A DNA stretch of 64,000 bases from Sulfurifustis variabilis (GTDB lineage: Bacteria; Pseudomonadota; Gammaproteobacteria; Acidiferrobacterales; Sulfurifustaceae): the NCBI RefSeq assembly GCF_002355415.1, contig NZ_AP014936.1:1054001-1118000 (forward strand), written 5' to 3'. Below are positions 19,725 through 43,253 of the stretch, piece after piece (the stretch's first letter is position 1; the number at the start of each line of letters is the position of its first letter). Below the pieces are notes generated by a model that worked only from the letters and a program-made list of their open reading frames with translations, was not told the origin of the DNA and did not search any database. The position numbers and the translations under genes are program-made.

Positions 19725-20600
19725 TCAACTGCCGCCCGCAGCCAGCCTCCGGATGGCGCCGTAAAGCCCGTCCACGACCCGCGCCATGCGCGCGTAATCG
19801 AGCTTCTCCGGCGTGTCGTGCGGCGTGTGGTAGTGGGCGTAACGGTAGAAGGCGGTGTCGGTCACCATCAGGGCGGGGTAGCCGACCATCCAGAACGAAA
19901 AGTGATCGCTCCAGGCGACCCCGGGGAGCCAGAAGGGCAGGGCGGCGGACTCCGCCGGAAAATCGCTTTCGGCGCGAAAGGCGCGCGTGAAGCGCTCGAG
20001 CGCGGCACGCGAGCGCAGGTTCGAGACGAAGGCGATGAAGTCGCCATGCGGCGGGTAAAAGTGCCTGAGCAGCGGCGGGTAGCGCTGGCTGCCGGGCGCC
20101 GTGTCGTAGTAGCCGAGCATCTCGAGCGAGATCATGAGCGGGATCGCCTCGTTGCGCTCGCGCACCGCCCGCGCGTACACGCGGCTGCCCTGGTCGGCGC
20201 TCATGAAGAAGGGCGGCTCCTCGTTGGTGAAGGCGACGAAGCGCACGGTCCGGTCGTTCGTGGTGCCGCGGAAGCGGCGCGAGAGCTCGAGCAGCACGGC
20301 GACCCCGCTCGCGTTGTCGTCCGCTCCCGGGCTGCCCTCGACCGAGTCGTAGTGCGCGCCCACGATGAGGATCTCGTGCGGCACGGCGGATCCCGGGCAG
20401 CCGACCTCGAGGTTCGCGCTCTCGACGCCCCGCACCCCATAGGTCTGCGCCTTCAGCGCGTAGCCGCAGGCGGCGAGCTCGGCACGGACATAGGCCTCGG
20501 CAGCGCGAAGGGCGTCGGGCCGAAAGACGTTGCGCTCGCCGATCTCGCCGGCGAGCGTTCGCACGTGGCGTCGCAACCGCTGTGCGACCTTTTCGTCCAT
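19725..20600 (-). CDS. M28 family zinc aminopeptidase-like protein
   Basis: A 291-residue di-zinc peptidase of family M28. The metal ligands are seen in order: GAHYDSVEGSPGADDNASG (His and bridging Asp), FTNEEPPF (catalytic Glu pair), SLEMLGYY and HYHTPHDTPEKL (last His). No signal peptide is visible, so it is probably cytoplasmic, in contrast to secreted relatives. The ATG at 20600 is used; a GTG 33 bases upstream is possible. It converges on the barrel gene with 13 bp between and is divergent from the DUF2459 lipoprotein gene. Confidence 0.9.
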   Translation of the reverse strand: MDEKVAQRLRRHVRTLAGEIGERNVFRPDALRAAEAYVRAELAACGYALKAQTYGVRGVESANLEVGCPGSAVPHEILIVGAHYDSVEGSPGADDNASGVAVLLELSRRFRGTTNDRTVRFVAFTNEEPPFFMSADQGSRVYARAVRERNEAIPLMISLEMLGYYDTAPGSQRYPPLLRHFYPPHGDFIAFVSNLRSRAALERFTRAFRAESDFPAESAALPFWLPGVAWSDHFSFWMVGYPALMVTDTAFYRYAHYHTPHDTPEKLDYARMARVVDGLYGAIRRLAAGGS

Positions 20601-20666
20601 CCCGTTCCCGGCTGTTCCGTCCAGGCGGCCCACGCTATTCTAGTTTTCCCGTCCCGACGAGACACG

Positions 20667-21347
20667 ATGCGCTTCGCGCATGCCCCGCCGCTGGTGTTGC
20701 TCTGTTCGCTCTGCGCGGGCTGTGCCACGCAGGCGCCCGCCACGCCCGCCGCGGTCCACGACGTCCGCTCGATTCACATCGTCGTTCACGGCTGGCACGC
20801 GGGCGTCGCGATCGCCCGCGAGGACATCGCGACGTCCGTCTGGCCGGAGGCCCTGGATTTTCCCGCGGCGGATCACATCGAAGCCGGTTGGGGCGACCGC
20901 GATTACTACACCGCGCCCGGGTTCCGGCTCTCGTACGCGCTCCGGGCGCTGTTCCTGCCCACGCCGAGCGTGCTGCACCTGGTCGGTATCCGGGGACGGG
21001 TCGCGTGTTTCCCGGCGCGCGACATCGTGGAGCTCCGCGTACCGCGCTCGAGCGTCGAGCGCCTCGTCGGGTACATCGCGGGCAGCCACGCGCGCGACGA
21101 GGCGGGCCGGGGGATCGTCGTCGCGCCGGGTCTGTACGGCGGCGGGCGCTTCTACCTGTCGAACGAGAGCTATCATTTGTTTCGTACCTCGAACGTCTGG
21201 CTCGCGCGCGGGCTGCGGGAGGCGGGCATCCGGGTCGTTCCGGGACTCGCCTTTTCGAGCACCGGGCTGATGAGCCAGCTGCGCGAGCTCGATTACGCGC
21301 ACGAGGTGGAATGCCCGTCGGGCATGGAGCGTCTCTCTAATCGGTAA
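20667..21347 (+). CDS. DUF2459 family lipoprotein
   Basis: A 226-residue protein of the DUF2459 family (also described as the TIGR02117 group), function unknown. The signal peptide ends in LCAGC with Cys19 as lipidation site. Conserved family features are IHIVVHGWHAGVAI, the EAGWGDRDYYT block, and near the C terminus LSNESYHLF followed by NVWLARGLREAG. It is followed after 17 bp by the thioredoxin-fold gene on the same strand, so they are likely cotranscribed and both act in the envelope. Confidence 0.87.
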   Translation: MRFAHAPPLVLLCSLCAGCATQAPATPAAVHDVRSIHIVVHGWHAGVAIAREDIATSVWPEALDFPAADHIEAGWGDRDYYTAPGFRLSYALRALFLPTPSVLHLVGIRGRVACFPARDIVELRVPRSSVERLVGYIAGSHARDEAGRGIVVAPGLYGGGRFYLSNESYHLFRTSNVWLARGLREAGIRVVPGLAFSSTGLMSQLRELDYAHEVECPSGMERLSNR

Positions 21348-21364
21348 CACGGAGACCCGTCACA

Positions 21365-21874
21365 ATGCGCTTGCGTCTTTCGGTGCTCGTCCTCTGGGCC
21401 GCGCTCGTCGCGGCGCCCGCGTTCGCGACGCCGCCCGACGTACCTCTCTCGGACTTCGATGGCCGCGTGCACAACGTCGGCACGCACCTCGGCAAGGGCC
21501 AATGGGTGCTCGTCGTGGCGTGGGCGCACGACTGCCACGTGTGCGAGGCGGAGATGGGCGAGATGGCCCGGTTTCACCGGGATTACGCGAAGAAGGACGC
21601 GCGCGTGATCGGGATTTCGATCGACGGCTTCGAGCTGCGCGACCGGGCGCGCGCCTTCGTGGAGCGACATCGGCTGCCGTTCCCCAATTTTCTCGTCGAG
21701 CCGGATCAGGAGATCATGATGCGCTTCGGCGGCGGGCCGTTCTACGGAACCCCGACGCACTATCTGTACGACCCCGCGGGGACGCTGGTCGCCATGAGCA
21801 CCGGCAGCATCACCGCGCAGGAGATCCGCGGCTACATCGACCGGAAGAAGGCGGGCGCCGGCGCGGCGCGCTAG
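21365..21874 (+). CDS. Periplasmic TlpA/peroxiredoxin-like thioredoxin-fold protein
   Basis: A 169-residue protein with a cleavable signal peptide (core LSVLVLWAALVAAPAFA) and a thioredoxin fold. The redox motif is CHVC at residues 57-60 (AHDCHVCEAEM), unusual compared with CGPC or CxxC of TlpA and CcmG. Later elements GISIDGF and the cis-proline region FYGTPTHYLYD are as expected. It probably reduces or oxidises thiols in the periplasm. It follows the DUF2459 gene. Its last four bases overlap the 3' end of senA, transcribed the other way, so the genes are tail to tail. Confidence 0.83.
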   Translation: MRLRLSVLVLWAALVAAPAFATPPDVPLSDFDGRVHNVGTHLGKGQWVLVVAWAHDCHVCEAEMGEMARFHRDYAKKDARVIGISIDGFELRDRARAFVERHRLPFPNFLVEPDQEIMMRFGGGPFYGTPTHYLYDPAGTLVAMSTGSITAQEIRGYIDRKKAGAGAAR

Positions 21875-23160
21875 CGCGCGCAGGTGCGAAAGCCGGCGTA
21901 GACGTCGTTGCGCTCGGGCGTGTAGAAGTTGCGCCAGGTGTTCCGGACGAGGCGCGCGGGCGTGACCCAGGAGCCGCCGCGCAGGACCTTCCGCGTGCCG
22001 AACCAGGGTTTCGAGTAATCCTCGTAGGGATCGGGCACGAAGCCGGGATAGGGCAGGAACGTGCTCGCGGTCCATTCCCACACGTTCCCGAGCATCTGAC
22101 GACAGCCACCCGCGCTGTCGCCGGCGGGGAGCGCGGCGACATCGACGTAGCCGCCGGAGGCGGCCCCGAGATTGGCCCGCGCGGCCTCCGGCGCTTCCTC
22201 GCCCCACGGGTAGCGGCGCTTTCCGCGCACGGGCTCGCCGTGCGGGCTTTCCACGGAGGCCGCGTACTCCCACTCCGCCTCGGTCGGCAGCCGCCGCCCG
22301 GCATAGCGGCAGTACGCGCCAGCCTCGTGCCAGCTCACGTGCACGACCGGCCGGTCCGGCGCGAGCGGTCGCCACCGGTCGAACCAGCGTGATTCCCAGC
22401 CCCCGTCGCCGCGTCGCCAGTGGACGGGCGCGGACAGGCCGGCCTGCGCTCGCCAGGCCCACCCGATGTCGTCCCAGAGCTCGCGGCGCCGGTATCCGCC
22501 GTCCTCGACGAAGCGCGCGTACTCGGCGTTCGTGACCGGCGCCCGTGCGATCCGAAAGGGCGCGATCGCCACCTCGTGCGCCCATTTCTCGTTGTCGAAG
22601 ACGAATACCCCATCCGCCTCGGCGCCGAGCGGGAAACGGCCACCGGGCAGCTCGATGTCGCCCGCCAGCGCGCCCGAGGGCGCGGGTTCGCGGGTCGTGC
22701 GGGCGAAGGCGGGGGCAGGGTAACCGAGCGTCTGGCGCATGTAAGCGAACGCCTCGGTGTGCATGTCCTCGTGGAAAATCGTAAGCTCGTAAAAATAGGC
22801 GCTCTGCTCGTCCACTCCCCGCGCGTGCAGCCGTTCGATCAGGGCCTCCTGTACGCGCCGGAGGTAGCCGAGCGTGTCGTCCAGGGACGGCAGCGGCAGG
22901 TCCCAACGGGTATCGTGCGGCACGGCCGAGGAGTCGTAGAGCCGATCGGCGTCCGGGAGGATCGGCGGGCGGTGGTCCAGGTGGCGGAGTATCCAGTGCT
23001 CGTGAAACCAGGCGAGGTGACCGATTTCCCACAGCAGCGGATTGACGATGGGAAGCCGCGGGCCCATGAGCTGCGCGCCGTCGAGCCCTTCGACGAGGGC
23101 GAGCGTGCGCGCGCGGGCGTCCTCGAGGTCGGCGATCAGTGTTGAGACGGTGACGCTCAT
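21871..23160 (-). CDS. senA: Selenoneine synthase SenA (EgtB homologue)
   Basis: A 429-residue non-heme iron enzyme that joins a selenosugar to hercynine, forming the C-Se bond that leads to selenoneine. The N-terminal DinB-like domain carries the three-histidine iron site: His48 (GHLAWFHEH), His130 and His134 (FHEDMHTEAFAY). From about residue 168 the formylglycine-generating-enzyme-like domain follows, with PVTNAEYARFVEDGGY, LPTEAEWEYAA, MLGNVWEWTAS and VLRGGSWVT. The fold alone fits ergothioneine synthase EgtB; the call as SenA rests on the adjoining senB and senC. Its ATG lies only 18 bp from the senB start on the other strand. Confidence 0.88.
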   Translation of the reverse strand: MSVTVSTLIADLEDARARTLALVEGLDGAQLMGPRLPIVNPLLWEIGHLAWFHEHWILRHLDHRPPILPDADRLYDSSAVPHDTRWDLPLPSLDDTLGYLRRVQEALIERLHARGVDEQSAYFYELTIFHEDMHTEAFAYMRQTLGYPAPAFARTTREPAPSGALAGDIELPGGRFPLGAEADGVFVFDNEKWAHEVAIAPFRIARAPVTNAEYARFVEDGGYRRRELWDDIGWAWRAQAGLSAPVHWRRGDGGWESRWFDRWRPLAPDRPVVHVSWHEAGAYCRYAGRRLPTEAEWEYAASVESPHGEPVRGKRRYPWGEEAPEAARANLGAASGGYVDVAALPAGDSAGGCRQMLGNVWEWTASTFLPYPGFVPDPYEDYSKPWFGTRKVLRGGSWVTPARLVRNTWRNFYTPERNDVYAGFRTCAR

Positions 23161-23178
23161 CCGGTTCGCATTCCCTCC

Positions 23179-24204
23179 GTGCGCATCGTTCTGATCACCC
23201 CGGCGAAGCGGGGCTCGAAGGCCGGCAATCGCGCGACCGCGGTGCGTTGGGCTCGCCACCTGCGCGCGCTGGGCCACCGCATCGACGTCGCGGTCGATTA
23301 CGACGGCCGGCCCGCCGATCTCATGGTCGCGCTGCACGCCTGGCGCAGCGCCGCCGCCGTAGAGCGCTTCCGCGAGCGCTATCCCGGAAGGCCTCTCATT
23401 CTAGCACTGACCGGGACCGACCTTTACCGCTTCCTCGCGACCGATCCCGAGGTCACCGTGCGGTCGATGGCGCTCGCGGACCGCCTCGTCGTGCTGCACG
23501 ACCTCGCGCACGAGGCGCTCGATCCCTCTCTGCGTCACAAGGTGCGCGTCATCCACCAGTCGGCGCTGCCGCTCGCTCGGCACCGCCGGCCGCCGACGCG
23601 GTACTTCGACGTCTGCGTCATCGGGCACCTGCGCGAGGAGAAGGACCCTTTTCGCGCCGCGTACGCCGCGCGCGGCCTGCCCGCCGGGTCGCGCATCCGG
23701 ATCGTTCATCTCGGCAAGGGGCACGGGCCCGAGTGGGAAGACGAGGCGCGCGACGAGATGCGGCGCAATCCTCGCTACCTCTGGCGCGGCGAGGTGCCGT
23801 TCGCGCGGGTGCGCGAGACCATGGCGCGCAGCCGGCTGATGGTGATCTCGTCGCGCATGGAGGGGGGCGCGAATGTCGTTTCCGAGGCGTGCGTGGCGCG
23901 GCTGCCCGTGATCGCCTCGGACATCCCGGGCAACGTCGGCCTGCTCGGGCCCGCGTATCCCGGCTACTACCCGCTCGAAGACTCCGCGGCGCTCGCCACC
24001 CTGCTGCTTCGCGCCGAACGCGACCCTGCGTTCTACCGCGCGTTGAAGCAGGCATGCACCGCACGCGCCCCGCTCTTCACGCCGGCTCGCGAGCGCCGTG
24101 CCTGGAAGTCGCTCCTCGCTGAAGTGACGGCGAGAGAATCAGAGGATCTTGAACCGCCAGGACGCCAAGGACGCCAAGGGGTGACTGAAATACCCGACCC
24201 ATAG
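23179..24204 (+). CDS. senB: Selenosugar synthase SenB (glycosyltransferase-like)
   Basis: A 341-residue GT-B-fold protein. In the sen pathway SenB uses selenophosphate and a UDP-sugar to make a selenosugar, the selenium donor for SenA. The sequence shows a glycosyltransferase-4-like start (RIVLITPAKRGSKAGNRATA), a central RYFDVCVIGHLREEKDP linker into the nucleotide-binding domain, and VISSRMEGGANVVSEA, the donor-sugar motif region. The start is GTG at 23179, since no ATG is available before residue 50. The last 20 or so codons run into an intergenic repeat (see 24149-24350), so the C-terminal tail EPPGRQGRQG is unlikely to be functional. Confidence 0.88.
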   Translation: MRIVLITPAKRGSKAGNRATAVRWARHLRALGHRIDVAVDYDGRPADLMVALHAWRSAAAVERFRERYPGRPLILALTGTDLYRFLATDPEVTVRSMALADRLVVLHDLAHEALDPSLRHKVRVIHQSALPLARHRRPPTRYFDVCVIGHLREEKDPFRAAYAARGLPAGSRIRIVHLGKGHGPEWEDEARDEMRRNPRYLWRGEVPFARVRETMARSRLMVISSRMEGGANVVSEACVARLPVIASDIPGNVGLLGPAYPGYYPLEDSAALATLLLRAERDPAFYRALKQACTARAPLFTPARERRAWKSLLAEVTARESEDLEPPGRQGRQGVTEIPDP

Positions 24205-24350
24205 GGAATCCCGACGATGCCGGCGTGTCATCGCGAACGCCGCGAAGCGATCCACGTATTCCGAGATGGCGCCGTCGCGTCGCTCCTCGCAATGACGCGT
24301 CGGGCGGACGTCTCTCGCCTTCGCGTTCCTGGTGTCCTGGGCGGTTCAGA
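24149..24350. repeat. Composite inverted repeat between senB and senC
   Basis: The outer arms match in inverted orientation: TTGAACCGCCAGGACGCC at 24149-24166, with a second AAGGACGCC unit after it, and GGTGTCCTGGGCGGTTCAG at 24331-24349. Nested inside is a second dyad, TGTCATCGCGAACGCCGCGA at 24226-24245 against GTCGCTCCTCGCAATGACG at 24280-24298. The inner unit recurs at 43187-43253. The left outer arm encodes the SenB C terminus, and the right arm contains the senC stop. It probably forms a transcript hairpin between the convergent genes. Confidence 0.75.
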
Positions 24351-26571
24351 ACAACAGCGTGATCGGTTCCGGTGAGTCGCTTGCGGGTCGGACGGTGCCG
24401 ATAACGGCCGCGTCGGCGTAGCCGAGAGCGCGCAGCGCCTCGACGCAGTCATCGGCACGATCGGCAGGCACCGAGGCGAGCAGGCCGCCCGAGGTCTGGG
24501 GATCGAAGAGCAGGGGATAGAGCGGGTGGCGCGCGGCCGCCTCCAGGTTACGTATCGCGCGGCGCAGGCGCACGTTCTCGGGAGCGAGCGTGCTCGCGAT
24601 GCCCGCGGCCAGGGTCTCCGGCGCGCCGGAGAGCGACGGCAGCGCGCCGAGCGCGATCTCCGCATCCATCGCGGACGCCCTGGTCATCTCGAGCAGGTGG
24701 CCGAGGAGACCGAAGCCGGTCACGTCCGTACAGGCGCTCGCGCCGTGCTCGCGCACGCACCCCGCCGCCCGGCGGTTCGACTGCAACATCATCGCGATCG
24801 CGGCGTCCACCCAGCGACCCTTCGCCTTTCCGCGCATGTCGGCGGCGAAGAGCGTCCCGGTGCCGAGCGGTTTGGTGAGTATGAGCCGCTCCCCCGCACG
24901 CATCCCCGACTTGCGCATGAGCCGATCCGGTTCCGCGATGCCGTTGACCGCGAGCCCGAAGGCGAGCTCGGCGCCTTCGGTGGTGTGGCCGCCGACGAGC
25001 GCGGCACCGCCTTCGTCGAGCGCGGTGAGGGCGCCGGCGAGGAGCTCGTAGAGCTGCTGCTCCATCTTCTCTTCCGGCGCGAGCGGCAGCGTCGCGATCG
25101 CGAGCGCCGACTGCGGACGGGCGCCCATGGCATAGATGTCGCTCAAACTGTGGTTCGCCGCGATCGCGCCGAAGGTGTAGGCGTCGTCGATCAAGGCCCG
25201 GAAGAAATCCACGGTGTGCACCATGACCGCGCCTTGCGGAACGGCGACGACCGCGGCGTCGTCGGGCGCGTCGAGGCCGATGAGAATGTCCTCACGTGCC
25301 CGGCCCGGCAGCCGCGCGAGCACGCGCGTCAGGACCGCGCTGCCCACCTTGGAGCCGCAGCCGCCGCAGCGCATGGCCAGCGCCGAAATGGCGGGTGCCG
25401 CTTCCGTTTGCGGCGCGGCGGACTCCGTCATCTTCGCGGGGAGCTCCTGGTATCCCCGCATCCAGCGTCGGTCGATCCAGTCCTTCCAGCGCCAGACCCA
25501 CTCGCCTTCGAAGGACCATCTGCCGCGCGACGCCACCGCGCAGCGGTTGCCGGTACTGATCAAGGCGAGGAACCGCTTCTGGGGCGTGAAGCGGCGCGGA
25601 CGGCGTCCCTCGAGCGCGCGCCGCAGGTTCTCGGCGAGCGGCGGACCGGAACGGACCGCGATCACGCCGGATTTTTCGCGCGGATGGTTCCGGATCGTGG
25701 CCACGTCGCCGGCCGCGTAGACGCCGGGGTGGGAGGTCGATCGCAGGCAGTCGTCGACTTCGATGAAGCCCCGCTTCGTGAGGGCGAGCCCCGTCTGTGC
25801 GAGCCACGCGGGGGCGGATGCCTGCGTGACCCAGACCACCGCATCGCAAGGAAGCATTTCGCCGTTCTCCGCCCGCAACCCGCCGTCCTCGACCGCCACC
25901 ACGCGCCGGTTCGTATGCACGGCGATGCCGCGCGTCTTCAGGATGCGCTGGAACCGGCGCCGCACGGCCGGATTGTGCGTCGGCAGGATCTCGGCCGTGT
26001 CGGTGACGAGCAGAAAGCTGGCGCCGCCGCCTTGCCGCCGCAGGCGGTGCTGGAGCGAGAGCGAAAGTTCTACCCCACCGGCCCCGCCGCCGACCACCGC
26101 GATTCGAAAGCCGGGACTCGCCGCGAGCGCCCGCCCGGCGATACGCGCCCAGCCCTCCAGAAACCGGTCGACCGGCTTGACCGGCAGGACACGCTCGGCG
26201 CCGGGTATACCCACGCGGCTCGGCTGCGATCCGGTGTCGATCGAAAGGAGGTCGTAGGGCACCGGGGGCCGGCTGCGGCAGAGCACCAGGCGGTTGCCGG
26301 GATCGAGCCCGACCATCTCGTCGTGGTAGAGGCGTGCGCCCGCGAACTGCGCGAGGGGGCGCAGATCGATGTGCGCTTCGTCGTAGGTATAGTGTCCGGC
26401 GAGGTAGCCGGGAAGCATGCCGGAGTAGGGCGTCTGCACGTCGCGCGCGATGAGCGTCAGGCGCACGCCTTCCATCGGGCGCATGCCGAACCGCTTGAGC
26501 ACCGCGACGTGGCTGTGGCCGCCGCCCACCAAAACGAGATCCCTGCGGACCGGCCCCTTTGTGCTCTGCAT
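24346..26571 (-). CDS. senC: SenC: FAD oxidoreductase fused to selenophosphate synthetase
   Basis: A 741-residue fusion. Residues 1-385 are a two-dinucleotide-binding-domain FAD oxidoreductase of the NADH-dehydrogenase-like group, with VLVGGGHSHV at 13-22, AVVGGGAGGVEL at 158-169 and GVYAAGDVA at 283-291. Residues about 397-741 are a SelD-type selenophosphate synthetase that makes selenophosphate from selenide and ATP: RCGGCGSK at 401-408 keeps the catalytic Cys405 and Lys408, then GLDAPDDAAVV, GGHTTEGAE and TDVTGFGLLGH. No selenocysteine codon is seen at the active site. The flavin half may reduce selenium to selenide or sense redox state; that is inferred. It converges on senB and lies just downstream of a small conserved-looking gene. 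Confidence 0.9.
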   Translation of the reverse strand: MQSTKGPVRRDLVLVGGGHSHVAVLKRFGMRPMEGVRLTLIARDVQTPYSGMLPGYLAGHYTYDEAHIDLRPLAQFAGARLYHDEMVGLDPGNRLVLCRSRPPVPYDLLSIDTGSQPSRVGIPGAERVLPVKPVDRFLEGWARIAGRALAASPGFRIAVVGGGAGGVELSLSLQHRLRRQGGGASFLLVTDTAEILPTHNPAVRRRFQRILKTRGIAVHTNRRVVAVEDGGLRAENGEMLPCDAVVWVTQASAPAWLAQTGLALTKRGFIEVDDCLRSTSHPGVYAAGDVATIRNHPREKSGVIAVRSGPPLAENLRRALEGRRPRRFTPQKRFLALISTGNRCAVASRGRWSFEGEWVWRWKDWIDRRWMRGYQELPAKMTESAAPQTEAAPAISALAMRCGGCGSKVGSAVLTRVLARLPGRAREDILIGLDAPDDAAVVAVPQGAVMVHTVDFFRALIDDAYTFGAIAANHSLSDIYAMGARPQSALAIATLPLAPEEKMEQQLYELLAGALTALDEGGAALVGGHTTEGAELAFGLAVNGIAEPDRLMRKSGMRAGERLILTKPLGTGTLFAADMRGKAKGRWVDAAIAMMLQSNRRAAGCVREHGASACTDVTGFGLLGHLLEMTRASAMDAEIALGALPSLSGAPETLAAGIASTLAPENVRLRRAIRNLEAAARHPLYPLLFDPQTSGGLLASVPADRADDCVEALRALGYADAAVIGTVRPASDSPEPITLLF

Positions 26572-26635
26572 GCTCGCGCCCCGTTGCGCGCGTTATCGTC
26601 CCACAGGCACTGCGCAGCGACAACCGCGCATCGCC

Positions 26636-26866
26636 TCACCTCCGGTAGAAGGCCAGCTCCCATCGATCCGCCGCCGCGTCGTGGCGCACGACGTAGCTCG
26701 CGCCGTCGTCGCCGCGCACCTTGAAGTAGCGATGGTCGGGGGCGATCCAGCGGTCGAGGATTTCCTCGACGGCGATGCGCCGTTGCCCGATCGAGAACGC
26801 GCGCGGCTCCTGCTCGCCGCGGTAGCCGGCATAGCACTCGACGCTCACTTCGAGCGGGGTCTTCAC
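26636..26866 (-). CDS. Small hypothetical protein upstream of senC
   Basis: A 76-residue protein beginning at a GTG at 26866 (MKTPLEVSVECYAGY). It has a beta-rich pattern with RIAVEEILDRWI, then HRYFKVRGDDGASYVVRHD and a terminal WELAFYRR, resembling short uncharacterised domains that occur in many bacteria and are annotated as hypothetical. No catalytic motif is obvious. It lies on the same strand as senC, 64 bp upstream, so it may be cotranscribed with it. The start is uncertain because no strong ribosome site was seen. Confidence 0.6.
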   Translation of the reverse strand: MKTPLEVSVECYAGYRGEQEPRAFSIGQRRIAVEEILDRWIAPDHRYFKVRGDDGASYVVRHDAAADRWELAFYRR

Positions 26867-26931
26867 GGGAGCAGGCTGACATCCGGCAAGGAGCGGGGCA
26901 AGATCCGGCCCCGCGGGAGCCCGGGCGCGCC

Positions 26932-27894
26932 TTACGCCGCCGGAATCTCGCACTCCTCGTTCTGACCGAACCAGAACGTGAGATCCTTGGCGAGGAACTC
27001 CTCGACCGGCATGTAGTGCGAGCCGTCGCAGGAGAACGTGAGGCCGACCAGCGCGTTCATTACGTTGAGCGAGCCGGAGCGCAGGTAAATGGTCTCGTCC
27101 GCGAAGCGCAGCGCCTTGAAGGCGGTCAGCACCTGGTCGATCTGCCCGGCTGCGACCTTGGCGTTTTCCGGGTAACCGCGCAGGGGGTAGGCGAGGCAGA
27201 GCTCCGGGTCGACGATCTCCTCGACGCCGTGCAGGCGATAGTTGTACGGGTCGTCCATCAGCCACAGCGAGAACCGGCCGCTCGAGAAATGGATCTTGCT
27301 GTGAAACACGCCGTGATCGCGCATCAGCGTGCCGATCGCCGCAAGCACCTCGTCCATGCGCTCGTCGAGCAGGCTGTGCGCGCGCGTCTGGGTGAAGACC
27401 GTGCCGCGCACGGCGGGGTCGCCGCGGAACTGGCGCCACCCCTGCGCCGGGCGCGCGAGCTCGGCGTTCCGCAGCAGGTCCGTCACGGCGAAATCGGCAG
27501 CGACGAAGCCGAGCAGCTGGTCGCCGCGGCGGACGGCCTGCAGCGCCGTGACGCAGGGCTTGTTGGTATAGACGCTCTGGTACACCGACGACAGCATGGT
27601 GCCTTCGAACGGAAGGCTGTGCTTCAGGTACGGGCGCTGCGAGAGGTCCCGGCCGCGCCACGCGGTGTCCGTCCCGTCGGGCCCGACCATCGAGGAAAGC
27701 TCGATGCCGTGCAGGTCCCAGCAGTACAGCAGGTGGCAGGCCGGTACGGTGTGGATCGCCTCGAGGAGGATGGCGTCCAGCCGGTCGGGATCCGGCCACG
27801 CCTCCGCGCACCGGCGGGCGATCGCGCTGAGCGGCGCCCGTATCGCCTGCGCGAGCGCGGCTTTCTTGGCGAGTATCGCTTGTTGCACCGGCAT
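26932..27894 (-). CDS. PDC sensor domain-like protein
   Basis: A 320-residue soluble protein. Residues about 30-150 match the PDC/Cache sensor fold: LLYCWDLHGIELSSMVG, DLSQRPYLKHSLPFEGTMLS and VTALQAVRRGDQLLGFVAADF, the last two being classic PDC ligand-pocket strands. Unlike most PDC proteins there is no signal peptide, membrane helix or output domain; the C-terminal 170 residues contain a repeated helical and beta pattern not recognised. It may bind a small molecule in the cytoplasm. Neighbours give no clear hint. Confidence 0.65.
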   Translation of the reverse strand: MPVQQAILAKKAALAQAIRAPLSAIARRCAEAWPDPDRLDAILLEAIHTVPACHLLYCWDLHGIELSSMVGPDGTDTAWRGRDLSQRPYLKHSLPFEGTMLSSVYQSVYTNKPCVTALQAVRRGDQLLGFVAADFAVTDLLRNAELARPAQGWRQFRGDPAVRGTVFTQTRAHSLLDERMDEVLAAIGTLMRDHGVFHSKIHFSSGRFSLWLMDDPYNYRLHGVEEIVDPELCLAYPLRGYPENAKVAAGQIDQVLTAFKALRFADETIYLRSGSLNVMNALVGLTFSCDGSHYMPVEEFLAKDLTFWFGQNEECEIPAA

Positions 27895-27973
27895 GGGTCT
27901 CTTCCCTGATGCGCGGACGGATCGCCGCGCATCCAGGTTAGTCTACCGGGTTTTCAGCGAGATGACGCGCCGA

Positions 27974-28642
27974 CTACGCCTCGGCGACGATGGGCTCGAT
28001 GTAGATCTCGACGCGCCGGTTCAGGCGGCGGCCTTCGGGCGTGGCGTTGCTCGCGCGCGGCGCCGCGAGGCCGCGACCCTCGGCCGCGAGGCGCTCGGGA
28101 ATCACGCCCCTGTTGCCGAAGTACTGCTGAACGGACTGCGCGCGCCGCTCGGACAGCTTCTGGTTGTACTGCGCGGTGCCGACGTTGTCGGTGTGTCCGA
28201 CGATCGTGAGGTGCGTCTTGCCGTATCGGTTCACGACCTCGGAGATCTTGTCCATGGTGCTGTAGAAGCCCGGCTTGATTTCGGCCGAGTCGAACTCGAA
28301 GGCGGTCTGGTCGGTCATCGTGACCCGCAGTACGTCGCCCTGCATCTTCTCGATCTGGATCGCCCCGGTCGAGCGCTCCTGGGTGAGGACCTTCTCGAGA
28401 TCCTGCTTCTGCTTGTCCATGTAGTGACCGACCGCCGCGCCCGCGATGCCGCCGCCGACCGCGCCGAGCAGCACGCCCTTCTTGCGATCGTTCTTGGAAG
28501 CGATGCCGCCGAGCACGGCGCCGCTCGCCGCGCCGATGATCGCGCCGCGTTCGGCGTCCGTGAGCGGCCGGCCGGTCGCGCAGGCGGTCAACCCGAAAGC
28601 GGTGGCGGTCGCGAGTAGCAGCAGTGTGCGAGAGAGCTTCAT
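27974..28642 (-). CDS. OmpA family lipoprotein with glycine zipper
   Basis: A 222-residue outer-membrane lipoprotein that anchors to peptidoglycan. The lipobox LTAC ends with Cys21; residues about 33-75 form a glycine-zipper segment (AIIGAASGAVLGGIA, LLGAVGGGIAGAAVG); residues about 105-220 are the OmpA C-terminal domain with FEFDSAEIKPGF, GHTDNVGTAQYNQKLSERRA and NRRVEIYI. The conserved Asp and Arg that bind diaminopimelate are in these motifs. The ATG at 28642 has AAGGAGA eight bases upstream. It is divergent from the antitoxin-like gene. Confidence 0.92.
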   Translation of the reverse strand: MKLSRTLLLLATATAFGLTACATGRPLTDAERGAIIGAASGAVLGGIASKNDRKKGVLLGAVGGGIAGAAVGHYMDKQKQDLEKVLTQERSTGAIQIEKMQGDVLRVTMTDQTAFEFDSAEIKPGFYSTMDKISEVVNRYGKTHLTIVGHTDNVGTAQYNQKLSERRAQSVQQYFGNRGVIPERLAAEGRGLAAPRASNATPEGRRLNRRVEIYIEPIVAEA

Positions 28643-28866
28643 GCCGTCTCCTTGTATTCCCATGTGGCAAGACCGTACGAACAATGCGTGTAGAGGCGAA
28701 ACGGGAAAGATTATAGCGGGGACAACCGGCCGCGCGCGCCCCGGGAATGCCGAACGGCGGAAGCGCCCGGCCGTCGGTCCTCGCGGTTGCCCCGTCGCGA
28801 GGCTAGGCTCTACTATGTGCCCCGTCGTTCCCGTCCATTGATGCTTCGCTCCCGCCCGGAGGCCGC

Positions 28867-29268
28867 GTGCAATCCCTGAATCCCGAAGACCGTCTGCAGC
28901 TGGCCCGCATGATCGTGAACCTGCTGGACGAATGGGGCGTCGAGCCGGCCGGACAGGTCCTGTTGCTCGGCCTGCCCGAGGAGACGAAGCCGCGATCGAT
29001 GGCGCGTTACGGGCGGGATCTCCCGCTCCCGGAGGACGCCGAGGTGATGGAGCGGGTCGAGCACCTGGTCGGCATCGCGGACGCGCTGCGCACGACGTTC
29101 CCGCGCAACGCGCGCATGGGCACGCTCTGGCTGAATCAGAGGAACAACCGCTTCAACGACCGCGTGCCGCTCGACGTGATGCTGGAGGACGGGCTCGCCG
29201 GCGTCATTGCGGTGCGCGCCCACCTCGACTGCGCCTTCGACTGGGACATGAGCGGGTCGAAGGCCTGA
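28867..29268 (+). CDS. Xre/MbcA/ParS-type antitoxin domain protein
   Basis: A 133-residue protein with the DUF2384-type MbcA/ParS/Xre toxin-binding domain in its second half (VEHLVGIADALRTTF, then LNQRNNRFNDRVPLDVMLEDG). In typical systems this domain neutralises a RES-domain toxin. The N-terminal half is helical and could bind DNA. No RES toxin is adjacent on either side; the next gene downstream converges and encodes a Sel1 protein. So it may be a solitary regulator or an orphan antitoxin. The start is the GTG at 28867. Confidence 0.8.
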   Translation: MQSLNPEDRLQLARMIVNLLDEWGVEPAGQVLLLGLPEETKPRSMARYGRDLPLPEDAEVMERVEHLVGIADALRTTFPRNARMGTLWLNQRNNRFNDRVPLDVMLEDGLAGVIAVRAHLDCAFDWDMSGSKA

Positions 29269-43186: not shown

Positions 43187-43253
43187 TGTCATTGCGAGGA
43201 GCGAAGCGACGAAGCCTTCCGGTCGCGGAGATCGCTTCGCTGCGCTCGCAATG
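43187..43253. repeat. REP-like dyad between ndh-like gene and rep
   Basis: TGTCATTGCGAGGAGCGAAG at 43187-43206 pairs imperfectly with CGCTTCGCTGCGCTCGCAATG at 43233-43253. The unit matches the inner dyad at 24226-24298 and resembles widely spread intergenic repeats of proteobacteria. Confidence 0.65.

Follow-up and report, generated by a model that had tools for sequence, protein, structure and literature searches.

Whether three adjacent genes of Sulfurifustis variabilis constitute a pathway to selenoneine, and whether their arrangement is an exceptional one, are the questions raised by a 64,000-nucleotide stretch of this genome (contig NZ_AP014936.1, here C1, positions 1054001 to 1118000, hereafter the window). 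An earlier note, made from the letters of the window alone, had recognised in it a senA-senB-senC set of unusual order and orientation. On re-examination of the open reading frames (ORFs), the senA, senB and SelD genes all lie where, and point in the direction, that had been claimed: the three are adjacent, senA and senB being divergent and senB and senC convergent (Table 1). The selenoneine assignment is borne out by the separation of SenA from EgtB in phylogenetic analysis and by a SenB score above the cut-off of TIGR04348, and the locus is very probably a complete one, which would make selenoneine through SenC, SenB and SenA using hercynine derived from EgtD. The description of the layout as unusual fared less well, as the same arrangement is the commonest in a survey of related loci.

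The three enzymes

SenB scores 438.1 bits against TIGR04348 (cut-off 300), carries a Glycos_transf_1 domain (Pfam) and matches four SenB sequences of the PDB with E-values of 1e-56 to 1.6e-55. Its residues N17, T20, K155 and E228 align with N20, T23, K158 and E231 of the Variovorax enzyme, which are given as catalytic or donor-site residues in the available part of PMC10891094, and they are the same in 84, 81, 84 and 84, respectively, of 84 surveyed loci. Membership of an unrelated glycosyltransferase clade, which the earlier note had named as an outcome that would refute its reading, is not what is seen, the protein passing the SenB-specific model and retaining all four residues. The EGGAHV motif that the same portion of PMC10891094 names as conserved in SenB has Asn in place of His in 82 of the 84 loci, including the window (EGGANV).

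The product of senA scores 549.4 bits against the SenA model NF041186 (cut-off 420) and 95.1 bits against the egtB_X signature TIGR04373 (cut-off 71). The H-x3-H/His48 iron site described in the earlier note is indeed present as His48, His130 and His134, which are identical in 57/57 SenA rows, and the protein has Asp132 and Ala137, as do at least 96% of those rows; at these positions the four rows of the OvsA clade carry Asn and Ser. A tree of 78 proteins, obtained by a quick search with support from the Shimodaira-Hasegawa-like approximate likelihood ratio test (SH-aLRT) only, and with 21 of its 75 inner branches open and long branches in EgtB and in locus L044, splits 17 EgtB-type rows from 61 SenA/OvsA rows with a support of 100 (L045 and the SenA fragments L093 and L117 were excluded). 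The clustering of SenA within true EgtB, which by the earlier note would have refuted its reading, is therefore not observed. Window SenA groups with four SenA rows from the same order (support 98), Variovorax SenA is a diverged row, and OvsA forms with the proteins of L058, L079 and L085 a separate clade on a long stem (1.47), away from window SenA. Together, these sequence comparisons support placing the iron enzyme of the window with SenA, apart from both EgtB and OvsA.

The third gene had been read as a selenophosphate synthetase, which holds for its SelD part (TIGR00476, 305.4 bits, cut-off 125) but overlooks an N-terminal oxidoreductase domain of about 360 residues. This domain (residues 11-373) is a pyridine nucleotide-disulfide oxidoreductase according to TIGR03169 (485 bits, cut-off 310), and the whole protein reaches 474.3 bits against TIGR04369, 'fusion_not_SelD', below the cut-off of 700. 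The CxxC of the SelD part (Cys402 and Cys405) is found in 48/48 fused proteins and Lys408 in at least 47 of the 48. SelD has a Cys and a Lys in its active site, and those of structure 3u0o are aligned with Cys405 and Lys408. The NADH oxidoreductase half of such fusions has been proposed to reduce a selenium compound for SelD (PMC2432076, in its available part), and the oxidoreductase-SelD type is by far the commonest SelD fusion according to the accessible sections of PMC4561486.

From the family identities, the catalytic residues and the gene content found by the searches, we infer that the chemistry described for related enzymes, those of Variovorax (PMC9814287, and the parts available of PMC10702425 and PMC10891094), also takes place in this organism. 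The flavin oxidoreductase half of SenC would probably supply electrons for the reduction of a selenium compound to selenide, which the SelD half would convert with ATP to selenophosphate. SenB would use selenophosphate and a uridine diphosphate (UDP)-sugar to form a selenosugar, and SenA, as a mononuclear iron enzyme, would couple this oxidatively to hercynine; the resulting selenoxide would then eliminate and be reduced to selenoneine.

Hercynine supply and selenium use in the genome

The genome consists of one contig of 3,958,814 bases, and its sole EgtD (C1:528008-528901, 399.1 bits, cut-off 290.9) lies outside the window, in keeping with the earlier statement that the window contains none. 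The whole-genome search for egtD that the note had suggested thus locates the source of hercynine elsewhere in the genome, in an egtB-egtD pair (C1:526737-528901). The true EgtB of this pair (C1:526737-527948, 593 bits, cut-off 360) is followed directly by egtD, about 550 kb from the sen locus. With egtD encoded in the same genome, the cell can make its own hercynine, and the need for uptake, the other option that had been considered, is rejected. Gene content further suggests that the cell can probably make ergothioneine as well, in which case EgtD would supply hercynine to both pathways.

Only one SelD exceeds the cut-off in this genome, two weak matches staying below it (68 and 25 bits). 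No SelA is found at E 0.001 and no MnmH over cut-off (two short matches, 28 and 22 bits), so that the gene is an orphan SelD in the sense of lacking SelA and MnmH, the search having extended to these two and not to SelB, tRNA-Sec or molybdenum-hydroxylase accessory genes. With one SelD and neither SelA nor MnmH over cut-off, SenB is the only visible customer of SelD. The main text of PMC5024460, on S. variabilis, has no word beginning with 'selen' and no 'ergothioneine'.

Relatives in the order

SenB exceeds the cut-off in 5/57 genomes of the order. The window genome is the only one in its family of 20, and the other four (G051, G053, G054 and G055) belong to one genus of another family. In all five a fused SelD stands beside SenB in the same three-gene block and senA is present and open, whereas the other eight SelD copies of the order stand alone (five by direct check, three by open-frame length only). 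The window proteins are up to 66% identical to their counterparts in these relatives for SenA and 64-66% for SenB; the tail-to-tail gap between senB and senC ranges from -11 to 20 bp in the four relatives, against 141 bp in the window. EgtD occurs in four of the five SenB genomes. EgtB exceeds its cut-off only in the window genome, the sole match at the threshold in each of the other four being SenA, so that hercynine in that genus would serve SenA alone.

The association of fused SelD with SenB does not extend to a general rule. In a phylum sample, SelD was found in 151/397 genomes and 80 SelD regions were examined (75 among the matches listed and 5 from the order). Within flanks of at most 5 kb a side, SenB occurs near 7/34 fused and 3/46 stand-alone SelDs, a comparison in which the fused-type profile, having been built from SenB-locus proteins, favours the former. 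The idea that an Ndh-SelD fusion marks selenoneine was therefore rejected, SenB being near just 7 of the 34. The loci with SenB beside a stand-alone SelD are L230, L231 and L240; L231 has a nearby oxidoreductase-like ORF and was counted as stand-alone because this is a second, separate ORF.

Gene layout across bacteria

A scan with a six-sequence SenB alignment against a genome collection of 84,980 species gave at least 575 stretches with a relative, of which 80 loci were kept. Adding the window, L041 and three plasmid loci gives the 85 loci surveyed here (L039, L040 and L042 were excluded because they coincide with L047, L046 and L049, and the near copies L043 and L045 were both counted). The window arrangement, with senA divergent from senB and the SelD fusion convergent with it within 1.5 kb, is the largest class (28/85, window included), and 'unusual gene order' is accordingly rejected. 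The two genes senA and senB occur together in 62/85 loci, divergent in 55 and co-directional in 7, and the SenA tree requires only two changes of orientation among 59 rows, 53 of them divergent. Divergent rows reach down to 30% pairwise identity, the lowest pair including L058, where the genes are 3 kb apart. On these counts the layout is both old and common.

In 13/85 loci senA and senB diverge but the stretch examined contains no SelD (one of these, L059, has an oxidoreductase ORF there), and in further loci SelD is distant or lies on another side. Both observations argue against a general senC-senB-senA unit. Conversely, senB is convergent with the fusion, with no SenA in the stretch examined, in 16/85 loci (L057, L088, L089, L092, L094, L099, L104, L108-L111, L114, L115, L121, L124 and L125), which may reflect a further use of SenB or a senA at another place in the genome. 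In L110 senB faces a gene for a putative selenate ATP-binding cassette (ABC) transporter binding protein (TIGR04553, 417.3 bits, cut-off 250), and L104, L124 and L057 resemble it by eye.

Co-directional senA and senB are seen in L098, L103, L113, L116 and L117, bins labelled Acidobacteria, Planctomycetota and Bacillota, and in L098 and L103 an egtD match stands right behind senB. Two Methylorubrum populi plasmids (L043 and L045) carry senA-senB. In the stretch examined they lack a SelD and have a transposase gene of the insertion sequence family IS6 abutting senA, indicating that senA and senB can sit on mobile or mobilizable replicons.

Alternative readings of the locus

Some observations weigh against the reading of the window as a selenoneine locus. 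In phmmer searches of the PDB, window SenA matches OvsA (342 bits) better than the EgtB entry 4x8b (294) and Variovorax SenA (279). The model NF041186 also takes the OvsA of L079 (L079:11099-12457, 427.6 bits against the cut-off of 420), a protein identical to the PDB OvsA segment at 431/442 positions, and is therefore not decisive on its own. G053, which bears SenB and is 97% complete, has no EgtD at threshold, and nothing in the S. variabilis genome passes the cut-off of TIGR04553, the model for a putative selenate transporter, the best match reaching 31.9 bits against 250.

The phmmer ranking and the behaviour of NF041186 are what an ovoselenol-type locus would offer, in which the iron enzyme would be an OvsA. 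OvsA places selenium on histidine instead of hercynine. Such a locus is nevertheless very unlikely here, given that the window protein lies outside the long-stemmed clade of OvsA, L058, L079 and L085, has SenA-type residues at Asp132 and Ala137, and scores 95 bits against TIGR04373, compared with 44 for L079 OvsA and 34 for the EgtB of the genome. The gene layouts at the three OvsA-clade loci are other than that of the window, and EgtD is present in the genome. On the tree placement the identification of the enzyme as OvsA was rejected. Among the proteins tested, TIGR04373 tells SenA from OvsA.

That the enzyme is a second EgtB of ergothioneine synthesis beside unrelated neighbours is the least probable of the alternatives, to the point of being almost negligible. 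Its match to the EgtB model TIGR03440 has an E-value of 3.4e-106, but the 355.8 bits fall below the cut-off of 360, the true EgtB of the genome reaches 593 bits beside egtD, and the pairing with SenB recurs in 62/85 loci; with the fully supported SenA/EgtB split, an EgtB identity was rejected. Finally, the main product could be a compound that depends on SenB, whether a selenosugar or some other, with SenA playing a minor part, as the 16 loci without SenA in the stretch examined and the putative selenate transporter facing senB in one of them (L110) might suggest. This too is very unlikely for the window, where, as in its four SenB-bearing relatives of the order, senA is present and open. The selenoneine locus remains by far the best account of the three genes.

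Spacing of the genes and possible overlapping transcription

In the surveyed loci the genes are mostly packed tightly at both ends of senB, a pattern that the window breaks at one end, between senB and senC. The median start-to-start gap of senA and senB is 37 bp in the 54 divergent loci where it stays below 1 kb, and 42/54 have at most 60 bp (start codons were picked by match to the window's proteins, and L058, with 2987 bp, is outside these values). Several of these gaps, read by eye, contain hardly more than one ribosome-binding-like sequence per gene. Among 52 loci with senB and SelD convergent, 28 have overlapping gene ends, and in 38 the ends overlap or lie within 30 bp of each other. 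In control gaps, taken from only 100 kb in two annotated records, one with an incomplete gene table that may lengthen the gaps, at most 60 bp separate 2/15 divergent pairs and at most 30 bp separate 1/16 convergent pairs. Fisher p-values for these comparisons overstate the case, as the sen loci are mutually related (11/18 senA-less loci of the convergent set are from Marinobacter).

Genes this close have hardly any space between them for ordinary promoters or terminators, and noncontiguous operons show this geometry. If the sen locus were a deeply conserved case of this kind, senC and senA would form one transcript running antisense through senB, the senB transcript would begin inside senA and end inside senC, and the making and using of the selenosugar would be opposed through overlapping transcription, for the sake of which the interlocked ends would be kept across classes. 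We consider this doubtful. The layout would also persist through the relatedness of the loci and their transfer as a block, and in the window the senB/senC gap of 141 bp is filled by an imperfect inverted repeat, which makes read-through from senC to senA less likely in this genome. The arms of this repeat (24157-24184 and 24313-24340) are 28 nucleotides long and 79% complementary, the element folds at -103.5 kcal/mol (z -4.6), and the final 16 codons of senB, stop included, lie within it. Its inner part recurs at 43187-43211.

The likeness to a noncontiguous operon is one of layout. In the available part of PMC7154746 such an operon is described for menE-menC-MW1733-ytkD of Staphylococcus aureus, where an opposite-strand gene likewise lies between the genes of the putative operon with nearly no space; the window differs by the inverted repeat between senB and senC. 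In the literature searched, which did not include the two founding papers (2022 and 2024), no description of the interlocked layout was found.

Other features of the locus

The ORF listed for senA is 488 codons long and begins further upstream than the start in Table 1, which follows from comparison with relatives. A scan of 21800-27000, including the senA/senB spacer, gave no sigma-70-like promoter (0.2 expected), a terminator scan gave two matches against 1.9 expected, and a search of 20000-29000 gave no Rfam match. Base composition shows no sharp break across the locus. Upstream of senC, and on its strand (-), 26636-26866 and 26932-27894 encode proteins of 76 and 320 residues; neither matches Pfam at E 0.1, and in the surveyed loci no homologue of either stands next to SelD.

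Table 1. Features of the sen locus, in window coordinates
Feature	Position	Strand	Evidence
senA, selenoneine synthase; non-haem iron, DinB_2 and FGE-sulfatase domains, 429 residues, ATG start at 23160	21871..23160	-	NF041186, TIGR04373, Pfam, tree, His residues
senA/senB start-codon spacer, 18 bp	23161..23178		start-codon comparison
senB, selenosugar synthase (Se-glycosyltransferase), 341 residues, GTG start at 23179	23179..24204	+	TIGR04348, PDB, residues
Imperfect inverted-repeat element	24157..24340		arms, RNA fold, copy of inner part
senC, NADH/FAD oxidoreductase-SelD fusion, 741 residues	24346..26571	-	TIGR03169, TIGR00476, residues
SelD domain of SenC, residues 401-705	24457..25371	-	profile, Pfam and PDB matches
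Oxidoreductase domain of SenC, residues 11-373	25453..26541	-	profile and Pfam matches

Significance and comparison with known systems

The enzymes, the pathway and the fusion are already known, and the window locus is a further member. What it adds is that all the genes for selenoneine are present in a probable sulfur oxidiser, in which the one SelD seems to work for a small molecule. An orphan-type SelD thereby gains a clear customer, and the discrimination between selenium and sulfur becomes testable in a sulfur-rich physiology. The interlocked head-to-head and tail-to-tail arrangement, commonest in our sample, leads to a specific prediction on overlapping transcription. Because the NCBIfam equivalog model for SenA accepts a near-identical copy of OvsA, database labels of 'SenA' may include OvsA.

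The sen cluster of Variovorax paradoxus has the same three activities adjoining as the window. Relative to it, the window SenB keeps the equivalents of N20, T23, K158 and E231 and SenA the three-His iron site, but the window SelD forms a fusion with an oxidoreductase, the SenB motif reads EGGANV rather than EGGAHV, and the two SenA proteins are distant in the tree. The domain order of SenC is that of the known Ndh-SelD fusions (COG1252-SelD; TIGR03169), whose SelD part carries the CxxC according to the available portion of PMC2398784. Extended SelDs are reported, in the part of PMC4561486 that is accessible, from genomes with selenocysteine (Sec) machinery, whereas no SelA was found in the window genome. 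Like the window, the ovs locus of Vreelandella utahensis (L079) combines a SenB relative with a SelD fusion nearby; it differs in that its iron enzyme falls in the OvsA clade, senB and ovsA are co-directional, and SelD lies 3 kb from senB. The sen loci of G051, G053, G054 and G055 share with that of the window both its layout and its fused SelD.

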